Positions 25,318-58,715 of a stretch of 64,000 nt of DNA are shown here, piece after piece. Under the pieces are notes generated by a model, which was not told the DNA's origin, ran no database searches, and worked only from the letters and a program-made list of their open reading frames with translations. The position numbers were made by a program, and so were the translations under genes. Every line of letters starts with the position of its first letter. Positions within the stretch are counted from its first letter, which is position 1. Location of the stretch: positions 1-64,000 of the forward strand of contig JACCTC010000343.1 in assembly GCA_013812655.1 (NCBI GenBank), written 5' to 3'. Source of the stretch: Deltaproteobacteria bacterium. GTDB lineage: Bacteria; Myxococcota_A; Polyangia; Haliangiales; Haliangiaceae.

Positions 25318-27705
25318 CTAGATCACCCGGGCGTGCGCTGCCGCGTGCTGGCGCAGCCGTAGCGCGTTGCCGATCACCGACACCGACGACAGGCTCATCG
25401 CGAGTGCCGCGAGCATCGGTGACAGCAGCCAGCCGGTGAACGGGTACAGCACGCCCGCCGCGATCGGGATGCCGGCGGCGTTGTAGACGAACGCGAAGAA
25501 GAGGTTCTGCTTGATGTTCGTCATCGTCGCGCGCGACAGCGCCCGCGCTCGCACGATGCCGCGGAGGTCGCCCTTCACGAGCGTGACGTGCGCGCTCTCC
25601 ATCGCGACGTCGGTGCCGGTGCCCATCGCGATGCCGACGTCCGCGAGTGCGAGCGCCGGGGCGTCGTTGATCCCGTCGCCGGCCATCGCGACCTTGCGGC
25701 CCTGCGCCTGGAAGCGCCGCACGTGCTCGGCCTTCTGATCGGGCAGTACCTCGGCAACGACCTCGTCGAGCCCGAGCTTGGTCGCGACGGCCTGCGCCGT
25801 GGTCTTGCTGTCGCCGGTCATCATCACGATGCGCAGCCCCTCGGCGCGCAGCGCGCGGATCGCCTCGGCCGTGGTCTCCTTGATCGGATCGGCGACCCCG
25901 ACGATGCCGGCGAGCTGACCGTCGACGGCGACGAACATCACGGTCTGGCCCTCGCCGCGCAGGGCCTCGGCGCGTGCCGCGAGCGTGCTCGCGTCGATCC
26001 CGTCGGTGTCCATCATCGCGCGGTTGCCGAGCGCAACCGGCTTGCCGTCGACGTCACCGCGGACGCCCTGGCCGGTCACCGACACGAAGTTGGTCGCCTC
26101 GCCGAGCGCGATCCCGCGATCGCGCGCGCCGGCCACGATCGCCGCGGCGAGCGGGTGCTCGCTGGCGCGTTCGAGGCTTCCCGCGTAGCGCAGCAGCGCG
26201 GCCTCGGTGTGACCGTCGGCAGCGATCGTGGACACCAGCCGCGGCTTGCCCTCGATCAGCGTCCCGGTCTTGTCGACGACGAGCGTGTCGACCGCCCGCA
26301 TCACCTCGATCGCCTCGGCGTTGCGGAACAGCACGCCCAGCGAGGCGCCCCGCCCGGTCGCGACCATGATCGACATCGGCGTCGCCAGCCCGAGCGCACA
26401 CGGACACGCGATGATCAGCACCGACACCGCGTTGACGAGCGCGTGCGCCATCGCCGGATCGCGGCCCCAGATCGACCACGCCACGAACGTCGCGATCGCG
26501 ATCACGATCACCGCGGGCACGAACCAGCCGGCGACCTGATCGGCGAGCTTCTGGATCGGCGCGCGGCTGCGCTGGGCGTCCGCGACCATCGCGACGATGC
26601 GCGCGAGCAGCGTCTCCGCGCCGACCTTGTCCGCACGCATGACGAGCGCGCCGGTGCCGTTGACCGTCGCGCCGATCACGCGCTCGCCGGGACGCTTCTC
26701 GACGGGGATCGACTCGCCGGTCACCATCGACTCGTCGACGGCCGACGCGCCCTCGAGCACGACGCCATCGACCGGCACCTTCTCGCCGGGACGCACGCGC
26801 AGCCGATCGCCGACGCGGATCGCATCGAGCGGGGCGTCGGCCTCGCTGCCGTCCTCGCCGATCCGGCGCGCCGACGTCGCCGCCATGCCGAGCAGCTTGC
26901 GGATCGCCGCGCCGGTCGAGCTTCGTGCGCGCAGCTCGAGCACCTGGCCGAGCAGGATCAGCGTGACGATCACGCCCGCTGCCTCGAAGTACGTGCCGAC
27001 CGTGCCGTCGTGCATGCGGAACGCAGGCGGAAACCAGTCGGGGACCAGCGCGGCGACCACGCTGTAGCCGAACGCCGTGGCGACGCCGAGCCCGATCAGC
27101 GTGAACATGTTGAGGTGGCGATTCCGCAACGATGCGGCGAACCGCACGTAGAACGGCCACGCGGCCCACGTACAGATCGGCAGCGCGAGCGCGAGCTCGG
27201 TCCACACCCGCGCGCGCCCGGTGACGATCGCGAGACCGACCATCTCACCCATCGCGATCGCGAACAGCGGGATCGTGAACGCCGCCGCGATCCAGAACCG
27301 GCGCGTCATGTCGACGAGCTCGTGATCGGGACCGGCGTCGAGGGTCGGCAGCGTCGGCTCGAGTGCCATGCCGCAGATCGGACAGCTGCCCGGCACATCG
27401 CGGAGGATCTCCGGGTGCATCGGACACGTGTAGGTCGTCCCCGGCGCAACCGGTGCGGGCGCCGCGGCCACCTGCGCAACCGGTGCGGGCTCGGTGTACT
27501 TCGCCGGATCCGCCGCGAACCGGTCCTTGCAGCGAGCGCTGCAGAACAGCACATCGTGGCCGCCGTGCACCAGGTGGTGGGCGGTGGTCGGCTTGACGAT
27601 CATCCCGCAGACCGGATCCTTTGCTGACGCCGGCTCGGTCGCGGCGAGCTCGGGGTGAGCGTGCGGCTGCGAGGAATGCGGGTGGTGATGCTGTGGCGTG
27701 CTCAT
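25318..27705 (-). CDS. Copper-translocating P1B-type ATPase with His-rich, YHS and HMBD N-terminus
   Basis: 795 aa. ATG 27705 starts a His-rich leader ([12 protein letters not shown]). A YHS-type domain follows (DPVCGMIV about 31, [10 protein letters not shown] about 55), then a heavy-metal-binding domain ([17 protein letters not shown], about 90-115). The ATPase core has TGES (about 330), CPC in a membrane helix (about 435), DKTG with the phosphorylated Asp (about 477), the SEHP motif (about 515) and GDGINDAP (about 677). CPC and DKTG indicate a Cu(I) exporter. There is no HMA domain, unlike the copA at 58712. A TGTAATG-N15-CGTC element lies at 27723-27748, just upstream. GCGAGG is the likely ribosome site. 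Confidence 0.92.
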
Positions 27706-27722
27706 CGGGGCCTCGCTGACAC

Positions 27723-27748
27723 GACGCCGTGGGTGCTCCGCCATTACA
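27723..27748 (-). promoter_or_regulatory. Putative CorE-like ECF promoter of the 25318 copper ATPase gene
   Basis: On the minus strand TGTAATG (27748-27742) is followed after exactly 15 bases by CGTC (27726-27723). The ATG is 17 bases further on, so the leader would be very short. The same 26-base layout precedes the copA operon, copZ and the MFS gene near 58 kb. Upstream GCAGG also matches GCAGGG before the copA element. Confidence 0.65.
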
Positions 27749-36294: not shown

Positions 36295-36699
36295 TCAGGC
36301 GACGTGCGTCAGCTCGACGTCGCGCATCGCCGTGCGCGACGCCTCGGACAGCATGAAGTGCAGCTTGTTCCCGGTCGCCGGCTTGATCATGTACTGGTCG
36401 CAGCCCGATGTGATCGCACGATGACCGATGTCGACCTCTGCCCAGCCCGTCATCGCCGCCACGTAGATCGATCTCCCGAACCGGACGCGCAGCTCGCGTG
36501 CGAGCTCGAGACCGCTGCGATCCGGCAGCCCGATGTCGACGAGCGCGATGTCTGGATGAAAGGTCGCGAGCTGCGCGAGTGCTTCACGCACGCTGTATGC
36601 GATGCGGCACTCATGACCGTGCATGACGAACCATGCGCAGGCGCTCTCCGCGGCGTCGGGATAATCGTCGACCACCAGGATCTTGTGCTTCGTCACCAT
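36295..36699 (-). CDS. Single-domain (CheY-like) response regulator
   Basis: 134 aa from ATG 36699; an ATG at 36717 gives six more residues. A full receiver domain: KILVVDDYPDAA (acidic pair), ALVDIGLPDRSGLELA with the phosphoacceptor Asp (about 53), AMTGW with the conserved Thr (about 82), and MIKPA with the Lys (about 103). There is no output domain, so it passes phosphate on or binds a partner. No kinase gene adjoins; the nearest kinase, at 32324, is a pseudogene. An orphan regulator is therefore likely. Confidence 0.85.
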   Translation of the reverse strand: MVTKHKILVVDDYPDAAESACAWFVMHGHECRIAYSVREALAQLATFHPDIALVDIGLPDRSGLELARELRVRFGRSIYVAAMTGWAEVDIGHRAITSGCDQYMIKPATGNKLHFMLSEASRTAMRDVELTHVA

Positions 36700-36817
36700 T
36701 CCCACGCGCAAATCCATCGCATGGAGTGCTCGACGGGCTCAACCGCAATCATCCGGCTTGATGCAAACCTTGCGAAGACCTGTCGCGGACCGATTGTCGC
36801 AACGCACCGCGTCGCGA

Positions 36818-38029
36818 TCACAGCGCGTAGAAGTCCTCGGGGATGGTCTCGGTCGGGCGCCAGTCGAGCTCGCCGGCCTCCGCGCCCTTGTACTGGATGA
36901 ACGTCTCCGCACACAGCGTGTGGTTGCCGGTCGGCGCCTTGTGGTTGGCTGCACGGACCCAGGCGAGCGCGCGATCGAGTGGGAGCTGACTGCTGCGCGC
37001 GAGGCCACAGACGAGGACGAGCAGATGCTTGCAGATCGTGCCCTGGAGGCCCATGCACTCCGACAGATCGGGCTGGGCACAGCCGAAGTTGCCCTCGGGG
37101 GTCAGCCAGCTCGCGTAGACGCTGCCCGATCCACTCTGGCTGCGGACCACGCCGACGAGGTGGGCATCGTCGACCCGCGTGTAGAGCTTGAAACGATCCT
37201 TGCGCAGCATGTCGAGCGCGCGGCCGAGCTTGCCCTCGTCGACGCTGCCGTAGAGCTGGCTCAGAAATCCTGCGAAGTCGAGCTCGCCACCCGTGCTCGG
37301 CCTGTCGACGCGGACGAGCTCGAGGAACGCGCGCTCGTCGAGCTTCTTGATGGTCGCACCCGCCTCGTTCAGCTTGTCGGCCTTGTTCGACAGCGCGATC
37401 TTCGAGGGCCCGCGGCGATTGCCGACGACCAGGTAGTCGATCGTCGGGTCGAGCACGGCGATGACGACGCCGCCGGCAGTCTCGACCATGCGCGCGAGCA
37501 GGCCGTCGTCGAGGCCCGCGGGGCTGCAGTCGAACCCGCCGATGAACGCGAACCGCTTGCCCATGAGGTCGATCCGGACGCGCTCGCGAAACGTGGCCTC
37601 GTCGAGCACCTCGAGCCGCGCGTCCGGCCTGGCGACGAGCTTGTCCGCGAGCTTCTTCGCCTCGGAGCGGCCCGGGCCCCGCAGCTCGCCGAACACGACG
37701 ACGTCGACACCCTCATCGAGCGACTCGACGATCCGCGCGCCGAGGCGAGCGGCGACGCCGGCCGGAATCGAGCGGTGGTAGGTCGGCCACACCGCGAACT
37801 CGCCGAAGAAGGCGAACCGCTTTCCCGCGTAGGGTTGCGGCCGCTCGGCAGACGATGGGGTGCGCTTCGGTCTGGGCTTCGACGCGGGCGCCGGCCTGGC
37901 CACTGGCTTCGTGGCGCTCGGCGGCTTCGTCGCCGGCATCGGCTTCGTGGGCTTCGCGGGCTTCGCCGGCTTCGTCGGCTTCGTCGGCTTCGGGCTCGTG
38001 GCCGCGATCGCGCGTGCTGGCTTTGCCAT
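36818..38029 (-). CDS. Two-BRCT protein with C-terminal SWIM-like zinc domain (last gene of MoxR/VWA operon)
   Basis: 403 aa. Residues 1-65 are a Lys/Pro/Ala-rich basic tail (KPTKPTKPAKPAKPTKP). Two BRCT-like repeats follow, each with a KRFAF(F/I)G start: KRFAFFGEFAVWPTYHRSI (about 71) and KRFAFIGGFDCSPAGLDD (about 158). Each has DVVVFGELRGPGRSEAKKLA-type or DYLVVGNRRGPSKIA-type later strands. The C-terminal 150 residues are a paralogue of the 44375 protein: NFGCAQPDLSECMGLQG and TICKHLLVL give a Cys-Cys-Cys-His set, and the last stretch is YKGAEAGELDWRPTETIPED. It starts two bases after the VWA gene. BRCT domains usually read phosphopeptides or DNA ends. Confidence 0.75.
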   Translation of the reverse strand: MAKPARAIAATSPKPTKPTKPAKPAKPTKPMPATKPPSATKPVARPAPASKPRPKRTPSSAERPQPYAGKRFAFFGEFAVWPTYHRSIPAGVAARLGARIVESLDEGVDVVVFGELRGPGRSEAKKLADKLVARPDARLEVLDEATFRERVRIDLMGKRFAFIGGFDCSPAGLDDGLLARMVETAGGVVIAVLDPTIDYLVVGNRRGPSKIALSNKADKLNEAGATIKKLDERAFLELVRVDRPSTGGELDFAGFLSQLYGSVDEGKLGRALDMLRKDRFKLYTRVDDAHLVGVVRSQSGSGSVYASWLTPEGNFGCAQPDLSECMGLQGTICKHLLVLVCGLARSSQLPLDRALAWVRAANHKAPTGNHTLCAETFIQYKGAEAGELDWRPTETIPEDFYAL

Positions 38030-38031
38030 CG

Positions 38032-39201
38032 TCAACCTCGGATGATCTCGGCCATCGCCTCGGCGAGCCGCTCGGGCGTGCACACCAGGATGTCCATCCC
38101 GACCTTGCGGCACTTGCGCGCGGTCGCCTTGTTGTACTCGGGGCGGGCGTCGTAGCCGAGCGCGCCGAGGCCGATCATCCGCACGCCGGAGTCGGCCATG
38201 ACCCGCACCTGGTCGATCAGGTCGCGCTCGTCGCGGCCCTCGAAGAAGTCGGTGATCAGCACGACGATCGACCGCGCCGGCTCGGCGACGAGACCCGCCG
38301 AGTAGACGAGCGCCTGGGTGATGTCCGTGCCACCGCCGAGCTGGACCTTGAGCAGCACGTCGACGGGGGAGCCAACCTCGGCGGAGAGATCGACGACGGT
38401 CGTATCGAACAGCACGAGCGACGTCCTGACCGCCGGCAGCTCCGCGAAGATCGACGCCATCACAGCCGAGAAGATCGCCGAGTCGAGCATCGAGCCCGAC
38501 TGATCGACGCAGACGATGATGTGCCACGGCCGCTTGTTCCGCTCGGCCGCGAAATAGAACAGCTGATCGACGAGCAGCCGCCGCCGCTCGTCGTCCCAGT
38601 TGTGGAGGTTCTTGCGCAGCGTCTTCTTGAGGTCGAGGTTCTTGAACACCTTGCGCGGCGAGTGGCGGTCCTTGCGGAGCGCGCCCGTGATCGCGGCCTC
38701 GACGCGGATCTCGAGCTGCTGCTTCAGCTGCTGGACGACCTGATCGATGATCTTGCGGGCGAGGATGCGCGCGCGGGGATCGAGCAGATCCTTGTGCGTC
38801 ATCAGCGTCTTCACGAGCTCGATGTTCGGCTCGATCTTCTCGAGCAGCTTCGGGTGATCGAGGAGCTCGGCGATGCCGCGCCGCGAGATCAGCTCGCGCT
38901 CGAGCACCTCCTTCGCCTGGCGCGGGAACAGCTCGGTCACCGCGTCGATCCAGGTCGGCACCGTCAGCGCCGAGGAGCCGCGCCCTGCCCCGCGGTCATC
39001 GCCCTCGAACACGAAGTCGAGCGCCGCCGCCGCCGATGCCGCGCGCTCGTCCGCGCCGACACCGAGACCGACCTGCTCGGCGGTCTTGCCGATCACCAGG
39101 CGCCAGCGGCTGACCCAGCTCTGGTCCTCGGGTGACAGGTTGACCGCTGGAGGAGGTGGTGCGGCCTTGACGGGCGCCGCTCGCTTGCGTGGGCCCGCCA
39201 T
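38032..39201 (-). CDS. VWA-domain protein (YehP-like)
   Basis: 389 aa. The first half (about 1-215) is helical with GVGADERAASAAAALDFVFE and EAAITGALRKDRHSPRKVF. The VWA domain spans about 225-385: HIIVCVDQSGSMLDS carries the MIDAS DxSxS, GGGTDITQAL the Thr and VLITDFFEG the Asp, so metal-dependent ligand binding should work. The ATG overlaps the TGA of the DUF5682 gene by one base (TGATG). E. coli YehP is the nearest functional parallel. It should be a partner of the MoxR-type ATPase two genes upstream. Confidence 0.85.
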   Translation of the reverse strand: MAGPRKRAAPVKAAPPPPAVNLSPEDQSWVSRWRLVIGKTAEQVGLGVGADERAASAAAALDFVFEGDDRGAGRGSSALTVPTWIDAVTELFPRQAKEVLERELISRRGIAELLDHPKLLEKIEPNIELVKTLMTHKDLLDPRARILARKIIDQVVQQLKQQLEIRVEAAITGALRKDRHSPRKVFKNLDLKKTLRKNLHNWDDERRRLLVDQLFYFAAERNKRPWHIIVCVDQSGSMLDSAIFSAVMASIFAELPAVRTSLVLFDTTVVDLSAEVGSPVDVLLKVQLGGGTDITQALVYSAGLVAEPARSIVVLITDFFEGRDERDLIDQVRVMADSGVRMIGLGALGYDARPEYNKATARKCRKVGMDILVCTPERLAEAMAEIIRG

Positions 39202-41732
39202 CAGAACGTCCACTCCTTCATGATCGCGGCGACCCTCGCGTCGATCGTCGCGAGGTACGCGCCTGCCTCGGTCGAGGTCGCCGGCAGCTCCGCGATCTGC
39301 TCCGCGTCGGCGAGGCCGTAGCGCGCCGCGACCCGGTCCGCGAACGCGAGCCGCTGCCGTTCGTGGAGCCGCTCGAACGCGTGGCGGACCTTGGGGAGCA
39401 GCACCATGAAGTCGTCCCACGGCGCGGCCCTCAGCAGCTGATCGATCGCACCGATCAGTGCCTCTGCTCCGAGCAGCATCGAGGTCTTCGATACCGCGAA
39501 CGCACCGTCGAGGAACTCGCCTGCGAGCACCATCTTCGCGGGCTGCGACCGGGCGAACGCGGCGACGCGTGCCGCGAGATCGTTCGGGTCGATCTCGCGC
39601 AGCTCGGTCAGGATCCCGGCGAAAGCGCCCTGCATGAACGGAATCTCCGTCGAGATCGCGGCCTGCTTGACCTGGTCGGCGAACAGCGTGCGATCGAGCT
39701 CGAGGTCCCCGCCGAGCACGGCCTCGGCGAGCGACTTGAGGTGCGCGATCGTCAACTCCTGCTGTTCGATCGGCACGGCGCCGAGGTCGGTGATCGCGAG
39801 ACAGGCACGCGCGTAGCTACGGCTCGCGAGCTTTTCGATCGCGTCGCGGCCGAGGTCGCGCTGGATCGCGAGCCGATCGAGCACGAGCAGGTGGACGAGC
39901 GCCTCGCACTGGGAAGCGAAGTGGCGATCCTCGTCGATCGCGGCGCCCGCGGCCGCCTCGAGCCGCTGCACGAGGTGCGGCAGCTGCATCGACACCGCAT
40001 CGAGCAGGCGCTGGCAGGTCGCACCGGCGTGACGTTGCTCCTTCGCGACATCCTCCTCGAGCTGTGCGATCGCCGCGGACTCGATGGTGTCGCCGTAGAG
40101 GTTCTTGTCGATCAGCTGCGCCTCGGTCTTCGGCGACCACAGCAGCTGCCACTTCTCGCGAAATAGCGTCGAGCCGTCGCCGGTGGCCCCGCCCTCGCGC
40201 TGCGCGAGCGAGATGTCGAGCTTCGCGAGCCGGTGGAGGAATGCCGAGCGCTTCGAGTCCTGGTCCTCGCGCAGATCGAGCGTAAGCGTCATCCGCTTGT
40301 CGCGCCCCATCACGTCACCGAGCTCGAGGGTGTCGAGCTGCGCGTAGAAGTCATGGACGATCGGCAACTTGCCGAGTGCCGGGGTGACACGACCGATCGC
40401 GTTACCGATCTCCGCGCCCGTCATCGCGAGCAGCAGGTGGCGCCCCTCCTCGTCGGGGCGGCCCTTGCAGCAACACGAGATCAGCGCGTCGCGGATGTCG
40501 TCGAGGATCGGCATCGGCCGGCCGCGCAGCACCGCGAGCATCCGGGCGTGCTGGGTCACCGAGATCGCATCCGCACTCGACAGCATTTCGCCATCCTTGC
40601 GGCCACGCGCGAGGACGCTGACGACGTGCTCGACCATCGCGGCGATCCACGGCTCCTCGTCCTTGTCGTCGAGGTGCTCCCACACCGCCTGGTAGAACCG
40701 CGGCGCACGATTCGCGGCGCCATAGCCCGACAGCTCGCTGACGCGAAAGTACGAGTACGGCACGACGGTGGTCAGCCACGTCCCCGCGGGCGGCGTTGGC
40801 GGCGGCTCGGGGTCGGCGCGGTCGAGGAACAGGTGGAAGCCGCCGCACACGACCATCGCCTGCTCGGGTGCGAGTCCACGCTTCGCGAGCTCCGCCTTGA
40901 TCGTGGCGAGCATGTGGCGCTCGCGAGGCAACGTGCCGTCGCGCGCGAGCCGCGCCGGATTCGAGGTCGCGCGGACCGCGGCGCAGAAGTACGCCATGTC
41001 GCGGCGAAACTCGTCGTACGTGCCGTGGCGGTGGCCGATCTCGAACAGCGAGTCCCACGCCTCGTCCCACGAGCGATAGCCGGCGACCCTGGCGAGCGTC
41101 TGGTAGAAGCTGCTCTCGACCACGGCCGCCTCCCAGCTCGGCACGGCGGTGCCCGGTGCCGGTTCGCTGGCGTCGGCTACCTCGTCACCGTCGTCGTCGG
41201 CATCGTCGTCGATGTCATCGTGATCGCCGTCGTCATCGGGATCGTTGTCCTCGTCGTCGAACGCGGTGTGCTCCCAGTCCGCCGGATCGATCAGCGCGTG
41301 GTTTGGCAAGTCGATGAACACGGCCTCGGCGCCGATCGCGACCGCCTCCTTCATCGCGACGTACTCCGGCGAGTAGCCGAGCAGCGGGTACCAGACCGGG
41401 AACCGTGGCGGGATGTCCGGCGCCGCGCTCGCTTTCCCCGCGAGTCCGAGGATGTTTCCGTCGTCGCGGTAGCTCGCGTACAGCGCGATCGGCGGCTTGG
41501 TCTTGGTGTCGACGATGTGCCGGATCATCTCGGTCGCGCCCGCGGGTCCTTCGATCAGGACGAGCTTCGGCTTGCGCGCGCGGATCGCTGCCCGCAGGTG
41601 GCGCGCGACCATCGGCGAGTGATGGCGGACCGGAAACCAGTACAGCGGCTCCGCGAGCACGCGGTCGGCCTCGGCCCGCACGCGCTCGATGTCGAGACCG
41701 CCGTCGGGCTGCTGATCTCCCGGCGCGGTCAT
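39201..41732 (-). CDS. DUF5682 family protein (YehM-like)
   Basis: 843 aa. The N-terminal part shows WFPVRHHSPMVARHLRAAI (about 32-50) and KLVLIEGPAGATEM (about 55-68), the signature of DUF5682. An acidic insertion (about 150-185, almost all Asp/Glu) links to a core with AMVVCGGFHLFLDRA (about 290), helices and a long C-terminal region. The RHHSP and later CGGFH pieces suggest a metallo-hydrolase-like or TraB/TIKI-like active site, which is inference. The start overlaps the stop of the AAA+ gene (ATGA) and the stop overlaps the VWA start, so all three are translationally linked. The E. coli relative is YehM. Confidence 0.8.
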   Translation of the reverse strand: MTAPGDQQPDGGLDIERVRAEADRVLAEPLYWFPVRHHSPMVARHLRAAIRARKPKLVLIEGPAGATEMIRHIVDTKTKPPIALYASYRDDGNILGLAGKASAAPDIPPRFPVWYPLLGYSPEYVAMKEAVAIGAEAVFIDLPNHALIDPADWEHTAFDDEDNDPDDDGDHDDIDDDADDDGDEVADASEPAPGTAVPSWEAAVVESSFYQTLARVAGYRSWDEAWDSLFEIGHRHGTYDEFRRDMAYFCAAVRATSNPARLARDGTLPRERHMLATIKAELAKRGLAPEQAMVVCGGFHLFLDRADPEPPPTPPAGTWLTTVVPYSYFRVSELSGYGAANRAPRFYQAVWEHLDDKDEEPWIAAMVEHVVSVLARGRKDGEMLSSADAISVTQHARMLAVLRGRPMPILDDIRDALISCCCKGRPDEEGRHLLLAMTGAEIGNAIGRVTPALGKLPIVHDFYAQLDTLELGDVMGRDKRMTLTLDLREDQDSKRSAFLHRLAKLDISLAQREGGATGDGSTLFREKWQLLWSPKTEAQLIDKNLYGDTIESAAIAQLEEDVAKEQRHAGATCQRLLDAVSMQLPHLVQRLEAAAGAAIDEDRHFASQCEALVHLLVLDRLAIQRDLGRDAIEKLASRSYARACLAITDLGAVPIEQQELTIAHLKSLAEAVLGGDLELDRTLFADQVKQAAISTEIPFMQGAFAGILTELREIDPNDLAARVAAFARSQPAKMVLAGEFLDGAFAVSKTSMLLGAEALIGAIDQLLRAAPWDDFMVLLPKVRHAFERLHERQRLAFADRVAARYGLADAEQIAELPATSTEAGAYLATIDARVAAIMKEWTF

Positions 41733-42889
41733 GACGCGCTCGTCACCGCCTTGAGCGCCGCGTCGTGGAACGTCTTCCAGCTCGCGTCCTTCGCGCCGCG
41801 CTTCTTGGCGACGACCGCGAGGTACTCCTTCAGCACCTTGAGGTCATCGAGGTCCTCCTTGACGACCGAGCCCACCAGGTTCCGGGCGATCTCCTCGATC
41901 GAGACGGCGCCGTTGCCGAAGTAGCGCGCGCGGATCGCCGAGTCGAGCGCGACCCCGATCGCCTCCGCCGTCGACAGCGTGGTCGATACCTTCTGGAAGC
42001 TGATGCCATCGGCGGTCGTACCCGCGCGCATCTCGCGGAACACCGTCGCCAGCATCGCGATCACCGGCTCCTCGATCTTCGCCGGGATCTTGTAGCGCTC
42101 GAGGAGCTCCTTCGAGCGGTCGCGCACGATCGCGATCTCGGTCTTCTGGTCCGCGACGATCGGGATATGCACGTAGTTGAACCGGCGCTTGAGCGCGGCG
42201 GACAGCTCGTTGACGCCCTGATCGCGCGAGTTCGCGGTCGCGATCACGTTGAAGCCCGGGCGCGCGAACACCATGTTCGCGTCGGGCAGCTCGGGCACGA
42301 CCATGTTCTTGTCCGACAGGATCGAGACGAGCGCGTCCTGGACGTCGGGCACGCAGCGCGTGATCTCCTCGAACCGCAGCAGCGCGCCGGTCTTCATCGC
42401 GATCATCGTCGGCGAAGGGATCATGTTCTCGGGCTTCGGACCCTCGGCGATCACGCGCGCGACGTTCCACGAGTACTTGATCTGGTCCTCGGTCGTGCCG
42501 GCGGTGCCCTGGATGGTAAGCGTCGAGCACCCGCTGATCGCCGCCGCGAGGTGCTCCGAGAGCCAGCTCTTGCCGGTGCCCGGCTCGCCGACGAGCAGCA
42601 GCGCCCGCTCGCTCGCGAGTGTCACGATCGCACGTTCGACGATCGTGTCGTCGCCGAAGAACTTGCGCGTGATCGCGACCTGCGTCTTCTTGCCGTTGAT
42701 CGTCAGATCGAGCGGCTTCGCGGTGCCCGTGATGTAGGCGAGCACCGACCGCGGCGACAGCTTCCACGCGCTCGGCGGCGTGTCCGCATCGTGCTGCTTC
42801 AGCGCATCGAGCTGGGCGCGGAATTGCAGCTCCGCGGGCTCGCGCAGGATGCCGGCGTCAGTGTCGGTGTCTTTGCTGTCCTTGGCCAT
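41729..42889 (-). CDS. MoxR-type AAA+ ATPase (YehL-like)
   Basis: 386 aa. Walker A LLLVGEPGTGKSWLSEHL (about 95-112), the Walker B region GALLRFEEITRC (about 165) with Glu where Asp is usual, sensor 1 IATANSRDQGVN (about 217) and an arginine-finger region RRFNYVHIP (about 233) are all visible. It differs from classical MoxR by the FEE in Walker B. The N-terminus (about 1-70) is charged and unassigned. Together with the VWA partner it probably forms a chaperone-like machine that inserts metals or remodels a substrate. The start is 10 bases after the 42900 gene. Confidence 0.85.
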   Translation of the reverse strand: MAKDSKDTDTDAGILREPAELQFRAQLDALKQHDADTPPSAWKLSPRSVLAYITGTAKPLDLTINGKKTQVAITRKFFGDDTIVERAIVTLASERALLLVGEPGTGKSWLSEHLAAAISGCSTLTIQGTAGTTEDQIKYSWNVARVIAEGPKPENMIPSPTMIAMKTGALLRFEEITRCVPDVQDALVSILSDKNMVVPELPDANMVFARPGFNVIATANSRDQGVNELSAALKRRFNYVHIPIVADQKTEIAIVRDRSKELLERYKIPAKIEEPVIAMLATVFREMRAGTTADGISFQKVSTTLSTAEAIGVALDSAIRARYFGNGAVSIEEIARNLVGSVVKEDLDDLKVLKEYLAVVAKKRGAKDASWKTFHDAALKAVTSAS

Positions 42890-42899
42890 GCGCGCTCCA

Positions 42900-44375
42900 T
42901 CAGTGCGAGAAATCCATCGTCTTCATCAGCGAGGCGAGATCGATCTTCTCGCCGGAGATCATGAGGTACTCGGGGCCATCGTCGCCGAACACGGTCAGCG
43001 GCTGGAACACGAGCCGGCCCATCTCGACGTGCATCAGCCCGTACAGCGGCGGCCGTGCGGCCTTGGGCTTCGCGAACGCCTTCAACGTCGTCATCAGCTC
43101 ACCTCCGTCGGGACCCGTCGAGCACACCGCGTCGAGCTCGAGCCCCGCGGCCGCGAGCGGAAACACCTGTTGTTCGGGCCGGTACGGGTTCGGCACCGGC
43201 GCGCCGAGGTGATAGTCGGTGACGATCACCTCGTCCTGCAGCTCGATCTCGAGATCGAGCGGGCTGATCGGATGACCGCGCCACCGTGCCGCGACCCGTT
43301 CGCGATCCCAGTGGACGAGCCCGTCCCAGTCGACGAGCTTCTTGCCCGGCTTGACGGTCGACTTCGGGCCCAGCATCAGGCGACCGGAGCCGTGCTCGTC
43401 GAGGCTGACCGCGGCGTCGGTGACGAGGATCTCGGTGCGGTCGAGCAGGAGCTTCGGCGTGAATTTCTGCGCCTGCGGCAGGTGGAGGAACGCCTCCGCC
43501 GGCACACCCGGCTTCTTGCCGAACACGCACGACCACGCGAGCCGCGCCCCGCGAGGCACGCTGCCCTGCTCGTCGAGCGTGATCATCCGGAACTCGAACG
43601 CGGCGGAGCCGTCGAGCAGCGCACGCTTGTGGACCCCGATCACCGCGAGCCGGAGCGCGCGCACCGGCATCGCCGGCGACGACAGCAGCAACCGCCCGAG
43701 CGCGACCTGATCGTCCTCGCGGATCGCCTCGAGCAGCCCGCGGCCGATCAGCCACGTGCGGGTCAGGAAGAACACGAAGCGGCGTGCCGAGAACTGATCG
43801 CTGTCACCGAGGAATCGATCGAGCTCGTCGCCGACATAGCGCAGCGACGTCGCGAGTCGCATCAGCTTCAAGCGGGACGCTTCCTTGAAGCTGGCATCGA
43901 GCTTCTGGCGCGTGGCGGTCGACGCCGTGGTCAACCCCGATCCGACGAGCCCCTCGACCGTGCGGGCCAGCTCCTCGAGCACCGGCACGAGCGCGCTGCG
44001 GTTCTCCGGCGTCGCGGTGCGCGCGGTGGGCGGCGTCGCCGGCGTGCCACCGCTGGGCTGCCCGGGCGCGAGCGCAGCAACCGCGACATCGAGCGACAGC
44101 ACGCGCTCGAACACGCGCAGCGCCGTCTGCGTGCGCAAGAGGACGCGTGCCGCCTCGGCGTCGGCTGCACGGACGTGACGGATCAGCGCCTCGACCTCGC
44201 CGGCGAGGTAGGCAGCGCCGGCGCGGCGGAGCTCCTCACCGTGCGCCGACAGCCGCTGCACGTCATCGCTGGCCGCCGCCTTGATGCCGCGAACGAACAG
44301 GTTCTCGAGGGCCTGCTGCAGCGCGAACAGCGCCGCGGTGACCTCGGTGTGAGAACCAGCGGCGGCGCCCTGCAT
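42900..44375 (-). CDS. Unknown 491-aa protein of the MoxR/VWA operon
   Basis: ATG 44375 overlaps the TGA of the SWIM-like gene by one base (TGATG). The N-terminal 120 residues are helical (HTEVTAALFALQQALENLF). A long Pro/Thr-rich linker (about 110-135) follows, then an alpha/beta domain with ARRFVFFLTRTWLIGRGLLE (about 215). Later strands include LVDWDGLVHWDRERVAARWR and SPLDLEIELQDEVIVTDY. No ATPase or nuclease motif is visible. It may supply the part of the SWIM protein that in other YehQ-like proteins is fused to the zinc finger. The position between SWIM and AAA+ genes is the only functional hint. Confidence 0.65.
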   Translation of the reverse strand: MQGAAAGSHTEVTAALFALQQALENLFVRGIKAAASDDVQRLSAHGEELRRAGAAYLAGEVEALIRHVRAADAEAARVLLRTQTALRVFERVLSLDVAVAALAPGQPSGGTPATPPTARTATPENRSALVPVLEELARTVEGLVGSGLTTASTATRQKLDASFKEASRLKLMRLATSLRYVGDELDRFLGDSDQFSARRFVFFLTRTWLIGRGLLEAIREDDQVALGRLLLSSPAMPVRALRLAVIGVHKRALLDGSAAFEFRMITLDEQGSVPRGARLAWSCVFGKKPGVPAEAFLHLPQAQKFTPKLLLDRTEILVTDAAVSLDEHGSGRLMLGPKSTVKPGKKLVDWDGLVHWDRERVAARWRGHPISPLDLEIELQDEVIVTDYHLGAPVPNPYRPEQQVFPLAAAGLELDAVCSTGPDGGELMTTLKAFAKPKAARPPLYGLMHVEMGRLVFQPLTVFGDDGPEYLMISGEKIDLASLMKTMDFSH

Positions 44376-44893
44376 CACAGCGCGTAATAGTCTTCCGGAA
44401 TGGTCTCGGTCGGTCGCCAGTCGAGCTCGCCGGCCTCGGCGCCCTTGTAGCGCACGAAGGTCGCGGTCGCCGCATCCTTGTCGAGCGCGGGCTTCGCCTG
44501 GCGACTCGCCTTGGCCCACGCGTTCGCGATGGTCGGATCGAGCTCCCCGGATTGCGCGAGGCCGATCGCGAGCACGAGGATGTGCTTGCAGAGCGCACCG
44601 CGCAGGCCGCCGCAGTGGTTGAGGTTCTGCGTGCAGCAGAAGAACTCGCCCTTGGTGCCGAGCCGGCACGCATAGAGGAGGCTGTGATCGGTCTGGCTCT
44701 TCACCACGCCGGTCACGTGATCGTCGGTCACCGACGAGAACAGCTGGAACCGATCGGCTCGCAGCATCTTCGTCACCTTCGACATCCGCGAGGCATCCGT
44801 GTTCGCGGTCAGCGTCCGGATGAATCCCGGCAGATCGATCGTGCTCTTCGCGGGCGTCATACCCGCCGTGGGTCCCACCAGCTTCCTCGCCAT
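44375..44893 (-). CDS. Small SWIM-like zinc-binding protein (first gene of the operon)
   Basis: 172 aa. Residues 30-120 form a small domain: MLRADRFQLFSSVTDDHVTG and GVVKSQTDHSLLYACRL, followed by FFCCTQNLNHCGGLRGALCK and the adjoining His. That Cys-Cys-Cys-Cys-His set resembles a SWIM zinc finger. The last 18 residues, KGAEAGELDWRPTETIPED plus YYAL, nearly equal the end of the BRCT protein encoded at 36818. SWIM fingers bind DNA or proteins. A 64-base gap separates it from the upstream YkgJ gene, so the operon may begin here or be read through from 46424. Confidence 0.75.
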   Translation of the reverse strand: MARKLVGPTAGMTPAKSTIDLPGFIRTLTANTDASRMSKVTKMLRADRFQLFSSVTDDHVTGVVKSQTDHSLLYACRLGTKGEFFCCTQNLNHCGGLRGALCKHILVLAIGLAQSGELDPTIANAWAKASRQAKPALDKDAATATFVRYKGAEAGELDWRPTETIPEDYYAL

Positions 44894-44957: not shown

Positions 44958-46424
44958 TCAGGACCCGCAGAGCGCTGCGAGCGCGGCGACCAGACCGCGC
45001 GCGCGCTCCGGGTGCTGCCGGAACATCGGCGACGTGAACGGCGGCAGGACCCGGTTCGCCAGCGCGTGACCACGGCCGAGCTCCGCGATGCCCCACCCCC
45101 CGCCGGTGCGCTGGGCGCCGGCAAAGCCCGCCGCGATCGCGAGCGCGGCCTGCCCGATCGCGGCGAGCGGACGATCCTCGGGGAGCGACAGCTGGCCTTG
45201 AAAGCCCTGGACCAGCGACGTGCGGAGTGCGGCAGCGATGTCGACCGGCAATGCAGGCGTGGAGGACGGACGCTCGCGAGCACGCTCGCGCAGCAGCTCG
45301 AGGCCGGGCAGCAACTCGACGATCAACGGCGCCATGTCGCGATCGCCCGGATCTGCGTGCTCGACGTTCGCCAGAAAGCTCGCGAGCTCGTCGACGACCA
45401 GCTCGAGCGCGGCCAGCGCGGCGTCCCAGTCAGCGGGCGACGGTGGTGGCGGCGGGTCGGCAGCAATCGCGATCGAAGCCCGCCATGCTGCGAACGCGAC
45501 TGCCGGATCGGAGCCGAGCGGGAACGTGCGCGCTGCCGCGACGAACGAATCGCAGATCTCGAGCGCGTACGCGAGCTGCCGGAATGGCGCGCCGTCCGCC
45601 ACGACCTGTCGCAGCGCGCCCTCGAGCACGAGGAAGTGCGCGTAGTCGACCGGCGTGTCCTCGCGGACGAAGACGATCGGATGAAATAGCGTGAGCGGGC
45701 CACTGAGCCGCGTGCGGATCAGGTGCGCACTCTCGATCAATGCTGGGCCGCGGTCCTGGCTCACGAAATGACTCGCGCATTGCTGGTTGTTGTAGAGGAC
45801 CGCGGCCTCGAACGTGAGCTTCGCCGCGACCGGGTAGCTCCGACACGCGCTGGGCTTTGCGGCCTCGCCGAACCGCGCGTGCAGACCGCAGCGCTCGTCC
45901 GGCTGCAAGAACACGCACCCGCTGTCGACGCGCCGCAGATACTGCTTGTCGTCGTGGCGCACGAACAGCTCACCGTCGGGCAGGTCCGCGAAGCTCGCGC
46001 GCAGCGGCAGCGCCGAGATCGAGGCCACCTCGTCCGCCGTGATCGGACCGAGGCGGTAGCTGCGGCAACACATCCCCGAGCCCTGGCAGGCGAACCGCGT
46101 GTCCGGCAGCGTCCGCGGCTCGAGCTCGATCTCGCCCGCCCAGATCGCGCGGACCCGGTCGCGGACGCCATCGCCGATGCCGTCGATCAGCTGGAGCAGC
46201 GTGAGGCACCGGAGAGAGTCTTCGATCGTGGCGCGTACGAAGCCGGCCTCGACGAGCTCGGCGATCAACCGGGGCGGCTCGCGAGTGCCGTCGAGCTTGC
46301 GCGCGACCGCGACCCCGGTCGGCCCGAGCGTCACCGTGCGCGTGAACAGCGGATCGAGCAGCGTGCCGCCACTGCCATCGCTCGCCGCCTGCAGCTCGAG
46401 CTCGTCGCGAAGCCGGAGGGCCAC
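44958..46424 (-). CDS. YkgJ-type cysteine-cluster protein
   Basis: 488 aa from a GTG. Residues 105-215 hold the cysteine cluster: FACQGSGMCCRSYRLGPI (about 111-128), GCVFLQPDERCGLHARFGEA (about 168-187) and KPSACRSYPV (about 190-199), the CxxxxxCC...C..L......C.lH...G...KP..C..yP pattern of the YkgJ family, which probably binds a zinc or iron-sulfur centre. The N-terminal 60 residues resemble a PqqD-like domain (FTRTVTLGPTGVAVARKLDG). The C-terminal half is helical and Pro/Ala-rich. It is on the same strand as the DUF1152 gene, 18 bases upstream. Confidence 0.8.
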   Translation of the reverse strand: MALRLRDELELQAASDGSGGTLLDPLFTRTVTLGPTGVAVARKLDGTREPPRLIAELVEAGFVRATIEDSLRCLTLLQLIDGIGDGVRDRVRAIWAGEIELEPRTLPDTRFACQGSGMCCRSYRLGPITADEVASISALPLRASFADLPDGELFVRHDDKQYLRRVDSGCVFLQPDERCGLHARFGEAAKPSACRSYPVAAKLTFEAAVLYNNQQCASHFVSQDRGPALIESAHLIRTRLSGPLTLFHPIVFVREDTPVDYAHFLVLEGALRQVVADGAPFRQLAYALEICDSFVAAARTFPLGSDPAVAFAAWRASIAIAADPPPPPSPADWDAALAALELVVDELASFLANVEHADPGDRDMAPLIVELLPGLELLRERARERPSSTPALPVDIAAALRTSLVQGFQGQLSLPEDRPLAAIGQAALAIAAGFAGAQRTGGGWGIAELGRGHALANRVLPPFTSPMFRQHPERARGLVAALAALCGS

Positions 46425-47423: not shown

Positions 47424-48533
47424 CTACGGCGACGCCGTTTCTGAAGGGCGCGTCTCCGCGGTGATCGTCCACAGCGCGCCGAGCTGGGCCCGCAAGCTCG
47501 CGAGCTCGGCAGCGAGCCACTCGTCGGCGCAGGCCAGTACCTCGGTGAGCTCGTCACGCAATGCGGGCGCGAGTCGATCGGCGACCGCGATCAGCAGGAG
47601 CGTGACTGCCTCGGCACGCTCGGCACCGACCGCGAGCTCGACGCGTGGGTACACGGCGAGCTTGCGGAGCGCGGACCGAGCTGCACTGAGCCCCGCCTGG
47701 TGCACGGTGCTGCTGGGGACCCGGACGCCGAGATGACCCGCGATCGGAAGCAGCGCGGTCGCGAGCTCCTCGATGCCCGCACCGGGACCGAGCTCGTCGA
47801 CCGCCGCCGACAGCCGCCGCGCAAACCCCTTGAGGTCGTCGCCCTCGCAGGTGAGCGTGAAGCCGAGCGACACGCCGTGGTCACGACGGCGCAGCGTGAT
47901 CCAGCCGCGTGACTTGCCGGTCACCGGATCGATCGCGCGCATCGCCTGCCAGACGCGCTCGGCGGAGATCCAGTGAGGCGGGTACTTGAACCGCGCGACG
48001 TCGAGCAGGAGGACCAGGTCGCGCGCTGCGTGGTAGCCCCCGATCGGCGAGAAGTGGCCACTGCCCGACTGTGCGAGACTGGCTCGATCGTACGAGGCGA
48101 TCACGACCACCTCCCCACGGGCCGCCGCACTCAGCGCCGCACGCCATGCCACGAGATCGCCGGCGTCCGTGCGGACCAGCTCGGCCGCCGCGCCGTTACA
48201 GCGAGCGAGACACGTGACCTCGTCGAGATCGAGGCCGCGTCGACGGACCTCCTCGAGGGAGACGCAGCAGTCGAGCAGGTCCTCGGAGAACCAGCGCCAC
48301 GGTCCTTTCCACAACCGCCCTGGATCGATGGCGAGTGCATTGAGCGCGACCACCAGCGACCCGAGCCCACAGAAGGCAGGTTCCGCTTGCGTGTGAAACT
48401 GCTCGGCGAGCCGGAAGTAGCCATCGAGACCGCCGGCGGCAAGCGCCTCGGCAAACAACTGTCGACCTTCAGGAGATGAGAACGCGATGGCATCTGCCGG
48501 AAGCGGTCGTCGGTAGAGGGTCTCGGTCGGCAT
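47424..48533 (-). CDS. Phytochelatin synthase family protein, long form
   Basis: 369 aa. The N-terminal papain-like domain (about 35-220) carries AEPAFCGLGSLVVALNALAI with the nucleophile Cys (about 54), then WKGPWRWFSEDLLDCC. CLARCNGA, GHFSPIGGYHAARD with the catalytic His and VLLLDVARFKYPPHWI with the Asp complete the triad. It transfers gamma-Glu-Cys from glutathione to another glutathione, making metal-chelating peptides, or acts as a glutathione hydrolase as short bacterial forms do. A helical C-terminal extension (about 225-369) is longer than in typical bacterial homologues and recalls the eukaryotic architecture. Cytosolic. Confidence 0.88.
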   Translation of the reverse strand: MPTETLYRRPLPADAIAFSSPEGRQLFAEALAAGGLDGYFRLAEQFHTQAEPAFCGLGSLVVALNALAIDPGRLWKGPWRWFSEDLLDCCVSLEEVRRRGLDLDEVTCLARCNGAAAELVRTDAGDLVAWRAALSAAARGEVVVIASYDRASLAQSGSGHFSPIGGYHAARDLVLLLDVARFKYPPHWISAERVWQAMRAIDPVTGKSRGWITLRRRDHGVSLGFTLTCEGDDLKGFARRLSAAVDELGPGAGIEELATALLPIAGHLGVRVPSSTVHQAGLSAARSALRKLAVYPRVELAVGAERAEAVTLLLIAVADRLAPALRDELTEVLACADEWLAAELASLRAQLGALWTITAETRPSETASP

Positions 48534-51322: not shown

Positions 51323-52867
51323 ATGACCGAGCCTGCGGACCCGAAATCGTCCTCGGAACCGCGGCCGCGCGGTCGCCGTGCGGTGCTCTTGATCGGAGCT
51401 GCTGCCGTCGCCGGCGCGCTCGCCGCCGCCGCCGTCGCGGCCTTGCTCGTCAACATCTCCAACCGAAAGCACGAGGCACAGAATCCGTACTTTCGGGTCG
51501 TCGAGCTGACCGACGAGACGGTGGATCCGGCGGTGTGGGGCAAGAACTTCCCGCTCCAGTACGACGGCTACAAGCGCACGGTCGATCAGGTCCGCACGCG
51601 CTATGGCGGAAGCGAGGCAGTCCCGAGGACTCCGACCCAGGCTGACCCTCGGTCGATCGTCGCGCAGTCACGCCTCGAGGAGGATCCACGGCTCAAGGCG
51701 ATCTGGGACGGCTACGCATTCTCGAAGGACTTCCGCGAGGAACGCGGCCACGCGTACATGCTGGCCGACCAGGAGTTCACCGAACGCCAGCAGGTGACCA
51801 AGCAGCCTGGCACGTGTCTGCACTGCCACGGCTCGATGTACACGGTCTACAAGAAGGCCGGCGGCGGCGACTTGATCGCCGGGTTCGAGAAGGTCAATCC
51901 ACTGCCGTTCGCCGAGGCGCGCAAGCTCGTGGAGCATCCGATCGCGTGCATCGACTGCCACGATCCCAAGACGATGGAGCTGCGCGTGACCCGGCCCGGC
52001 TTCATCGAGGGCATCCGAGCGGTCAAGGCGAAGCAAGGCATCGCCGACTACGACGTCAACCGCGACGCGACTCACCAGGAGAAGCGCTCGTTCGTCTGCG
52101 GCCAGTGTCACGTCGAGTACTACTTCAAGGGGCCGACGAAGCGGCTCACCTACCCGTGGCTCGAGGGCCTCACCGTCGACGCGATCTACGCGTACTACAC
52201 CGAGGTCGGCCACGTCGACTGGACGCATCCACGCACCGGCACCAAGATGCTGAAGGCGCAGCACCCGGAGTTCGAGCTGTGGAACCAGGGTGTGCACGCT
52301 CGGTCTGGCGTCGCATGCGCTGACTGCCACATGCCGTACATGCGGGTCGGCGCGGTGAAGATCAGCGACCACCACGTCCGCAGTCCGCTGCTAAACATCA
52401 ACCGGGCCTGTCAGCCTTGCCACAAGTTCGGCGAGGAGGAGCTGCGCGCCCGCGTCAGTGTGGACCAGGATCGAACGTTCGCGCTCCGCAACCGAGCGAT
52501 GGACGCGGTGGTCGCGCTGATCGATGATCTCGCAGACGCGGTCGCCGCTGGCAGGACCGACGCGGAGCTGGCCACCGCGCGCGAGCTCCACCGCCAGTCA
52601 CAGTTCTTCCTCGATTTCATCGAAGCCGAGAACAGCATGGGCTTCCACGCGCCCGGCGAGGCTGCGCGCATCCTTGCGACCACGATCGATCTCGCACGTC
52701 AGGGCCAGCTCGCAGTGCGCGGCACGCTGCCCGCCGCATCACGCCCTCCCGCCGCAGCCCCCCCCGCGGGTGACTCGACTGGCACATCGCCGGGCAGCGC
52801 GGTGGCTCCGACGGGTGCAGGATCTGCGGCATCCGGCTCGGGCCCGGGTTCATCCCGTACTCGATGA
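51323..52867 (+). CDS. nrfA: Ammonia-forming cytochrome c nitrite reductase
   Basis: 514 aa. A hydrophobic N-terminal anchor lies at about 15-40. The five heme sites are CLHCH (about 165), CIDCH (about 209), CGQCH in CGQCHVEYYFKGPTKRL (about 259), CADCHMPYMRVG (about 332) and CQPCH (about 362). Heme 1 is the active site, which in most enzymes is CxxCK; here it is CLHCH, the alternative seen in some NrfA clades. The active-site Arg/Tyr/His region is recognisable. It reduces nitrite to ammonium with six electrons in anaerobic respiration. The last 60 residues are a Pro/Ala/Gly/Ser-rich tail. Confidence 0.93.
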   Translation: MTEPADPKSSSEPRPRGRRAVLLIGAAAVAGALAAAAVAALLVNISNRKHEAQNPYFRVVELTDETVDPAVWGKNFPLQYDGYKRTVDQVRTRYGGSEAVPRTPTQADPRSIVAQSRLEEDPRLKAIWDGYAFSKDFREERGHAYMLADQEFTERQQVTKQPGTCLHCHGSMYTVYKKAGGGDLIAGFEKVNPLPFAEARKLVEHPIACIDCHDPKTMELRVTRPGFIEGIRAVKAKQGIADYDVNRDATHQEKRSFVCGQCHVEYYFKGPTKRLTYPWLEGLTVDAIYAYYTEVGHVDWTHPRTGTKMLKAQHPEFELWNQGVHARSGVACADCHMPYMRVGAVKISDHHVRSPLLNINRACQPCHKFGEEELRARVSVDQDRTFALRNRAMDAVVALIDDLADAVAAGRTDAELATARELHRQSQFFLDFIEAENSMGFHAPGEAARILATTIDLARQGQLAVRGTLPAASRPPAAAPPAGDSTGTSPGSAVAPTGAGSAASGSGPGSSRTR

Positions 52868-58556: not shown

Positions 58557-58715
58557 ATGTCGTGCAAGTCCAAAGGAACCTTGGTCGAGGCAGCCGTCTG
58601 CACGTTGATCAAGGAAATCGTCTCCGCTTACGAGGCACGGCGCCGTGCTCGCCGCGACGTCATTCAGTCCGACGCGGCTACGGGCCGCGCGACCACCGCG
58701 GAGGCGACGTCATGA
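58557..58715 (+). CDS. Small protein (52 aa) coupled to copA
   Basis: ATG 58557 with GAGGTG upstream. The product starts MSCKSKGTLVEAAVCTLIKE and is helical and basic, with Cys at 3 and 15 and an Ala/Arg-rich tail. The stop TGA overlaps the copA ATG (ATGA), so it is translated with CopA. Its two Cys may bind Cu(I), but there is no named family. The predicted promoter lies immediately upstream, suggesting it may also act as a leader peptide for copA. Confidence 0.6.
   Translation: MSCKSKGTLVEAAVCTLIKEIVSAYEARRRARRDVIQSDAATGRATTAEATS

Follow-up and report, generated by a model that had tools for sequence, protein, structure and literature searches.

What does a bacterial cell do with a MoxR ATPase, a VWA protein and a pair of BRCT domains encoded in a single transcription unit? 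This question is raised by a six-gene operon at 36818-44893 of a 64,000-nucleotide stretch of contig JACCTC010000343.1 (hereafter the window; assembly GCA_013812655.1, a deltaproteobacterium of the family Haliangiaceae). A sequence-only reading of the window had likened most of these genes to Escherichia coli yehLMPQ and had recognized an additional two-BRCT protein. Our analysis indicates that the core of the operon is, with near certainty from sequence similarity, a YehL-type MoxR system, and that the BRCT-SWIM protein is a lineage-restricted accessory on this conserved core. The six genes, in operon order, are:

44375-44893, minus strand: SWIM-like protein, 172 amino acids (aa), first gene; CCCH ligands C86, C94, C102 and H104
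42900-44375, minus strand: U491, 491 aa; two copies of a helical segment, then presumably a beta-rich region
41729-42889, minus strand: MoxR/AAA_5 ATPase of the YehL type, 386 aa; Walker A GEPGTGKS at residue 101
39201-41732, minus strand: DUF5682 protein of the YehM type, 843 aa; N-terminal ~300 aa predicted to be TraB/PrgY-like
38032-39201, minus strand: VWA_CoxE protein of the YehP type, 389 aa; metal ion-dependent adhesion site (MIDAS) with DQSGS at 233, GGGT at 289 and LITDF at 315
36818-38029, minus strand: BRCT-SWIM protein, 403 aa; BRCTs at ~67-152 and ~153-240, SWIM-like module at ~249-403

The MoxR-DUF5682-VWA core

The proposed kinship with E. coli yehLMPQ is borne out by BLASTP, which aligns the MoxR protein with YehL (42% identity, E 1e-88), the DUF5682 protein with YehM (25% identity, E 1e-31) and the VWA protein with YehP (38% identity, E 6e-89). 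Searches of Pfam assign the same three proteins to AAA_5 (E 9e-36), DUF5682 (E 1e-106) and, as the best match of the VWA protein, VWA_CoxE (E 8e-47), and both the Walker A motif of the ATPase and the MIDAS motif of the VWA protein are intact. MoxR ATPases are divided into seven subfamilies, the YehL branch being one (PMC3893208). The literature that we searched yielded no client or function for this branch, no mention of DUF5682 and no paper in which BRCT, MoxR and VWA come together.

All six open reading frames (ORFs) start with ATG and lack internal stops, and G+C content by codon position favours the called frames as coding. Their junctions are, in order, TGATG, a 10-base gap, ATGA (a 4-base overlap between the moxR and DUF5682 genes), TGATG and a 2-base gap, which confirms the description of six linked minus-strand genes; overlap alone is insufficient to establish the further claim that the proteins are made in fixed proportions. 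All six genes are under purifying selection, with a ratio of nonsynonymous to synonymous substitution rates (dN/dS) of 0.04-0.18 between the window and the related locus L031. These values are taken from this pair only; comparisons with two other genomes (G207 and G210) are unreliable because codon bias compresses dS. The preceding minus-strand gene in the window, which encodes a CxxCxxCC protein (44958-46424), ends 64 bases ahead of the operon. In L031, the gene upstream of the operon lies on the opposite strand, and the transcription unit therefore begins at the SWIM-like gene.

The BRCT-SWIM protein

While Pfam recognizes only the second BRCT copy of the last protein (E 9e-5 in the window, 4e-6 in L031), profile comparison recovers both. 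Behind a Lys/Pro-rich N-terminal tail of ~60 aa, BRCT1 and BRCT2 each match a LigA-type BRCT profile (hhalign probability (P) 94, E 1.4e-7, and P 97, E 1e-11, respectively) and match each other (P 98, E 2e-14), every unrelated profile staying below 2%. The SWIM-like part that follows is 46% identical to the 172-aa SWIM-like protein, and both proteins end in the same C-terminal tail, GAEAGE(L/V)DWRPTETIPED(Y/F)YA. The two BRCT domains and the second SWIM-like copy that had been read from the window were thus upheld by controlled comparison. Searches of PDB sequences returned noise only.

In 90% of bootstrap trees, the SWIM-like modules of one gene separate from those of the other, and the BRCT-SWIM protein of a distant relative (genome G188) falls on the BRCT side, in a tree that is small and leaves several forks open. 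This pattern would fit a single ancient duplication and fusion as the origin of BRCT-SWIM. G188 also encodes a third SWIM-like protein (L072, 8614-9600), in which the module is fused to a different N-terminal region in place of the BRCTs. Because this protein carries another N-terminal region, it suggests that the SWIM-like module may be a general dock for exchangeable readers.

Distribution and variants of the operon

DUF5682 matches occur in 42 of 189 Myxococcota genomes and in 17 of 35 genomes of the order, and most of the 34 Myxococcota loci that we examined contain the MoxR-DUF5682-VWA trio. The neighbourhood is conserved in related genomes, as the sequence-only reading had anticipated: two other genomes of the genus, G208 (locus L031) and G207 (locus L112), keep the six-gene order. 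Across these three genomes, the BRCT-SWIM gene lies behind the VWA gene in the same direction, separated by a 2-base gap, by a 3-base gap or overlapping it by 4 bases, and the proteins of the six-gene relatives are 60-85% identical to that of the window (60% in G207, position kept). Within the phylum sample, full-length BRCT-SWIM proteins were encoded by the window genome and by G188; the order sample yielded them from G207, G208 and, again, the window genome. The loci of G210 and G197 lack BRCT-SWIM, and the rest of each genome yielded no full-length copy. We conclude that this accessory is restricted to one lineage, since the six-gene order is found in the genus, two relatives have five-gene versions, and the distant relative G188 keeps BRCT-SWIM apart from the core.

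The accessories of the 34 loci form four groups. The core is accompanied by WGR-DUF4132 upstream and YehQ downstream, by SWIM-DUF5691, by SWIM-U491 as in the window, or by a ~1600-aa protein and DUF4132 together with a fused DUF5682-VWA. BRCT-SWIM is seen solely alongside the SWIM-U491 group, and SWIM-DUF5691 takes the same place upstream of moxR in other loci. In L035, L036, L048 and L077, which carry the fusion, a YehQ homologue follows it; ahead of it come a short DUF4132 protein and the ~1600-aa protein, for which Pfam gives no significant match.

A scan of all species for BRCT-SWIM, which detects close relatives only, gave one match. No plasmid with BRCT-SWIM or U491 and no viral contig with the SWIM-like module was found, and a phage collection gave a single DUF5682 match, in an unannotated faecal record of 14 kb whose origin is uncertain. 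The DUF5682 core itself is present on plasmids of Methylosinus (L102), Sinorhizobium (L100) and Iodobacter (L101), two of which have transposases, toxin-antitoxin or restriction-modification genes adjoining the core.

The SWIM-like protein and U491 as a split YehQ

The sequence-only reading had left the 491-aa protein as an unknown. The gene is indeed present, and the protein it encodes, which has no significant Pfam match, is a homologue of the post-SWIM region of YehQ as judged by profile comparison. U491 aligns with a YehQ-family profile over 356 collinear columns (hhalign P 90%, E 1.5e-6, score 58.7), and the controls scored far lower, with maxima of 20.0 for 40 column-shuffled profiles, 22.6 for the reversed profile and 19.9 for unrelated profiles. 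Likewise, a YehQ hidden Markov model searched against the ORFs of the 34 loci matches U491 of the G188 locus L042 (E 1.8e-10) and that of the window (E 4e-5). A helical segment of ~80 residues, present twice in U491, also occurs near the end of YehQ. Given this homology, the SWIM-like protein and U491 together are best read as a split YehQ; single-sequence BLAST to YehQ was not significant. We rejected the possibility, suggested by equal length and position, that U491 is a diverged DUF5691 (hhalign P 0.5, no Pfam match).

As for the two SWIM-like modules of the operon, neither has a significant Pfam match, Pfam SWIM (PF04434) included, and the ligand spacing is C-x7-C-x7-C-x-H, not the CxC..CxH of the SWIM zinc finger. 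In profile comparison, the module pairs with the SWIM partner of DUF5691 at P 78 and E 2e-5 (hhalign); its match to the N terminus of YehQ, which holds the first SWIM, is weak (P 23, E 9e-4). The module thus appears to be a remote relative of SWIM domains. The SWIM label of the sequence-only reading stands as far as this profile kinship goes and falls with respect to a Pfam SWIM match and the CxCxnCxH spacing.

The N terminus of the DUF5682 protein

The N-terminal ~300 residues of DUF5682 show a weak similarity to PrgY-type TraB proteins (hhalign P 32%, E 5e-4). The score of 32.1 compares with at most 17.5 for column shuffles of the TraB profile and 19.2 for unrelated profiles. Across 19 DUF5682 sequences, ranging from E. 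coli to Myxococcota, five residues do not vary (H37, E61, R270, E271 and H300); they align collinearly with GTAH, E, ER and AH, the corresponding motifs of TraB. Enzymes of the TIKI superfamily carry a set of two His and two Glu (PMC6254334). A resemblance of the DUF5682 N terminus to the TraB/PrgY (TIKI superfamily) hydrolase fold is therefore moderately supported by these alignments. An AlphaFold model of DUF5682, computed from an alignment of two sequences only (window and L031), has a predicted local distance difference test (pLDDT) score of 40.0 and is uninformative.

Genomic surroundings of the operon

The window also encodes a phytochelatin synthase, the CxxCxxCC protein mentioned above (a putative chelating protein), two heavy-metal P-type ATPases and a cytochrome c552. 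These metal and stress genes lie at:

47424-48533, minus strand
44958-46424, minus strand
25318-27744, minus strand
58712-61051, plus strand
51383-52867, plus strand

On the minus strand, 36295-36717 encodes a response-regulator receiver protein; ~100 bases separate it from the BRCT-SWIM gene, which lies upstream. Essentially no flanking gene is common to the operon loci of the window, L031, G207, G210 and G197.

A proposed mechanism and its rivals

Our preferred reading, held tentatively and at somewhat less than even chances, is that the operon encodes a YehL-type MoxR-VWA remodelling machine whose BRCT-SWIM adaptor targets the core to a phosphoprotein or a DNA-bound target. BRCT domains usually recognize DNA ends or phosphorylated proteins. 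In NorQD, a finger of the VWA protein enters the MoxR ring, the MIDAS binds the client, and remodelling is driven by ATP (PMC9976466). Similarly, the MoxR ring of the operon, with the VWA protein at its pore, would remodel a client held through the VWA MIDAS site. The two SWIM proteins could serve as exchangeable adaptors, docked on the core via the SWIM-like module and the conserved C-terminal tail, with the BRCT-SWIM adaptor steering the machine to its phosphorylated or DNA-bound target; WGR-DUF4132 proteins may play a comparable steering part in other versions. DUF5682 probably holds the catalytic (TIKI-like hydrolase) site, or might instead be the controlled effector. Both the targeting step and this enzymatic role are what we infer.

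A role for the operon in DNA damage is only indirectly supported. In other loci, the core has WGR-DUF4132 (MolR-type) or DUF4132 proteins as neighbours. LexA is listed as a regulator of the WGR gene molR in E. coli (PMC11039860, PMC4576408), and WGR/DUF4132 genes are repressed by DdrO in Deinococcus and derepressed when DdrO is depleted (PMC8533742). A candidate LexA-type box of E. coli yehF (L084, 450-465) has one mismatch, eight such sites being found for 5.6 expected, which is not significant alone. A wider version of the idea, in which the yeh system as a whole would be a DNA-damage-linked remodelling or proteolytic machine with interchangeable readers (WGR-DUF4132, or the BRCT pair here) and DUF5682 as a TIKI/TraB-type hydrolase, seems to us unlikely.

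Several observations weigh against BRCT-directed targeting. The genes around the operon serve metal homeostasis, and none of those adjoining it was identified as a repair gene. The window contains no LexA box of the Myxococcus type. The coupling to DNA damage or nucleic-acid sensing that the sequence-only reading suggested is hypothetical. BRCT domains also mediate plain protein-protein contacts. The AlphaFold model of BRCT-SWIM, from an alignment of the same two sequences only, has a mean pLDDT of 38.6 and is uninformative. L113 and L114 are five-gene versions lacking BRCT-SWIM, which is therefore not essential to the core. These two loci, together with G188, in which the BRCT-SWIM gene lies 11 kb from the core on the other strand, would also fit a SWIM-like duplicate that was fused to BRCTs, acts independently and sits at the operon end by chance in one genus. 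We regard such a passenger as improbable, since its gene keeps its tight co-directional placement behind the VWA gene in three genomes despite 60-85% protein identity, and since its SWIM-like module and C-terminal tail are common with the first gene of the operon.

The metal genes bring up a rather doubtful alternative, a chaperone for the maturation of metal cofactors or metalloenzymes, in which MoxR-VWA would open a client for metal insertion while the SWIM-like and BRCT parts would be client scaffolds unrelated to DNA. It would account for VWA_CoxE being the best Pfam match of the VWA protein, and it has precedents in CoxD/CoxE and in NorQD, which inserts the FeB iron (PMC9976466). MolR, too, was originally linked to the use of molybdate (cited in PMC8533742). 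However, the flanks of the operon are not conserved between the loci compared, so the metal genes may be local; moreover, the operon encodes no metalloenzyme client, and two BRCTs are atypical of metal chaperones. We also consider it unlikely that the operon is a conflict (anti-phage or cell-suicide) system, in which MoxR-VWA would set a threshold, SWIM/BRCT or WGR proteins would sense invader DNA or damage, and DUF5682 would be the effector. Its patchy distribution, the variable accessories around a fixed core, plasmid carriage beside restriction-modification or toxin-antitoxin genes and the analogy to MoxR-vWA ternary systems (PMC7159879) all point that way. Yet PADLOC gives weak AAA matches only, the MoxR protein scores 23.6 bits against a bpMoxR cut-off of 27, and neither Pfam nor PADLOC detects a VMAP, iSTAND, FtsH or beta-propeller third component among the six proteins. 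Nor is there a hypervariable effector, and the window neighbours that were scanned are not defence genes. Membership of the MoxR-vWA conflict systems, which the sequence-only reading had entertained, finds no support here.

What would be new in the targeted remodelling machine that we favour is a BRCT pair as a recognizable reader module, and a predicted catalytic fold in DUF5682, on a known, uncharacterized system. The BRCT-SWIM variant offers entry points, namely the ligands of the BRCTs and the need for H37, E61 and H300 in DUF5682, a family that spans E. coli, Streptomyces plasmids and Myxococcota. If true, the damage link would explain why molR, a WGR relative, is listed in the LexA regulon.

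Comparison with known systems

The operon shares a MoxR ATPase and a MIDAS-bearing VWA partner, and likely the same motor principle, with NorQ/NorD, CoxD/CoxE and RavA/ViaA (PMC9976466, PMC3893208). These nevertheless belong to other MoxR subfamilies, from which YehL is listed apart. To our knowledge, none of them has DUF5682, YehQ or BRCT partners. The MoxR-vWA ternary conflict systems (PMC7159879) likewise are built on a MoxR-vWA pair, joined by one further conserved protein and by accessories that vary, but their VMAP, iSTAND and FtsH components are absent here, and the paper describing them does not mention BRCT, WGR, SWIM or Yeh. With the TraB/PrgY/TIKI hydrolases, the DUF5682 N terminus has in common the collinear, invariant His, Glu, Arg-Glu and His, while differing in the weakness of the overall similarity and in a large C-terminal region. 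The SWIM-DUF5691-MoxR-DUF5682-VWA loci (L053, L043, L080 and L102) have the same core and, upstream of moxR, a SWIM gene with a ~490-aa partner; this partner is DUF5691 there and U491 here, and BRCT-SWIM is absent from those loci. In E. coli yehLMPQ, finally, MoxR, DUF5682 and VWA come in the same order and a SWIM protein is part of the set. The E. coli locus has yehF (WGR) and yehI (DUF4132) upstream, whereas the window operon contains no WGR-DUF4132 gene, appears to have YehQ split into the SWIM-like protein and U491 and placed upstream of moxR, and has gained BRCT-SWIM as an addition to the set.

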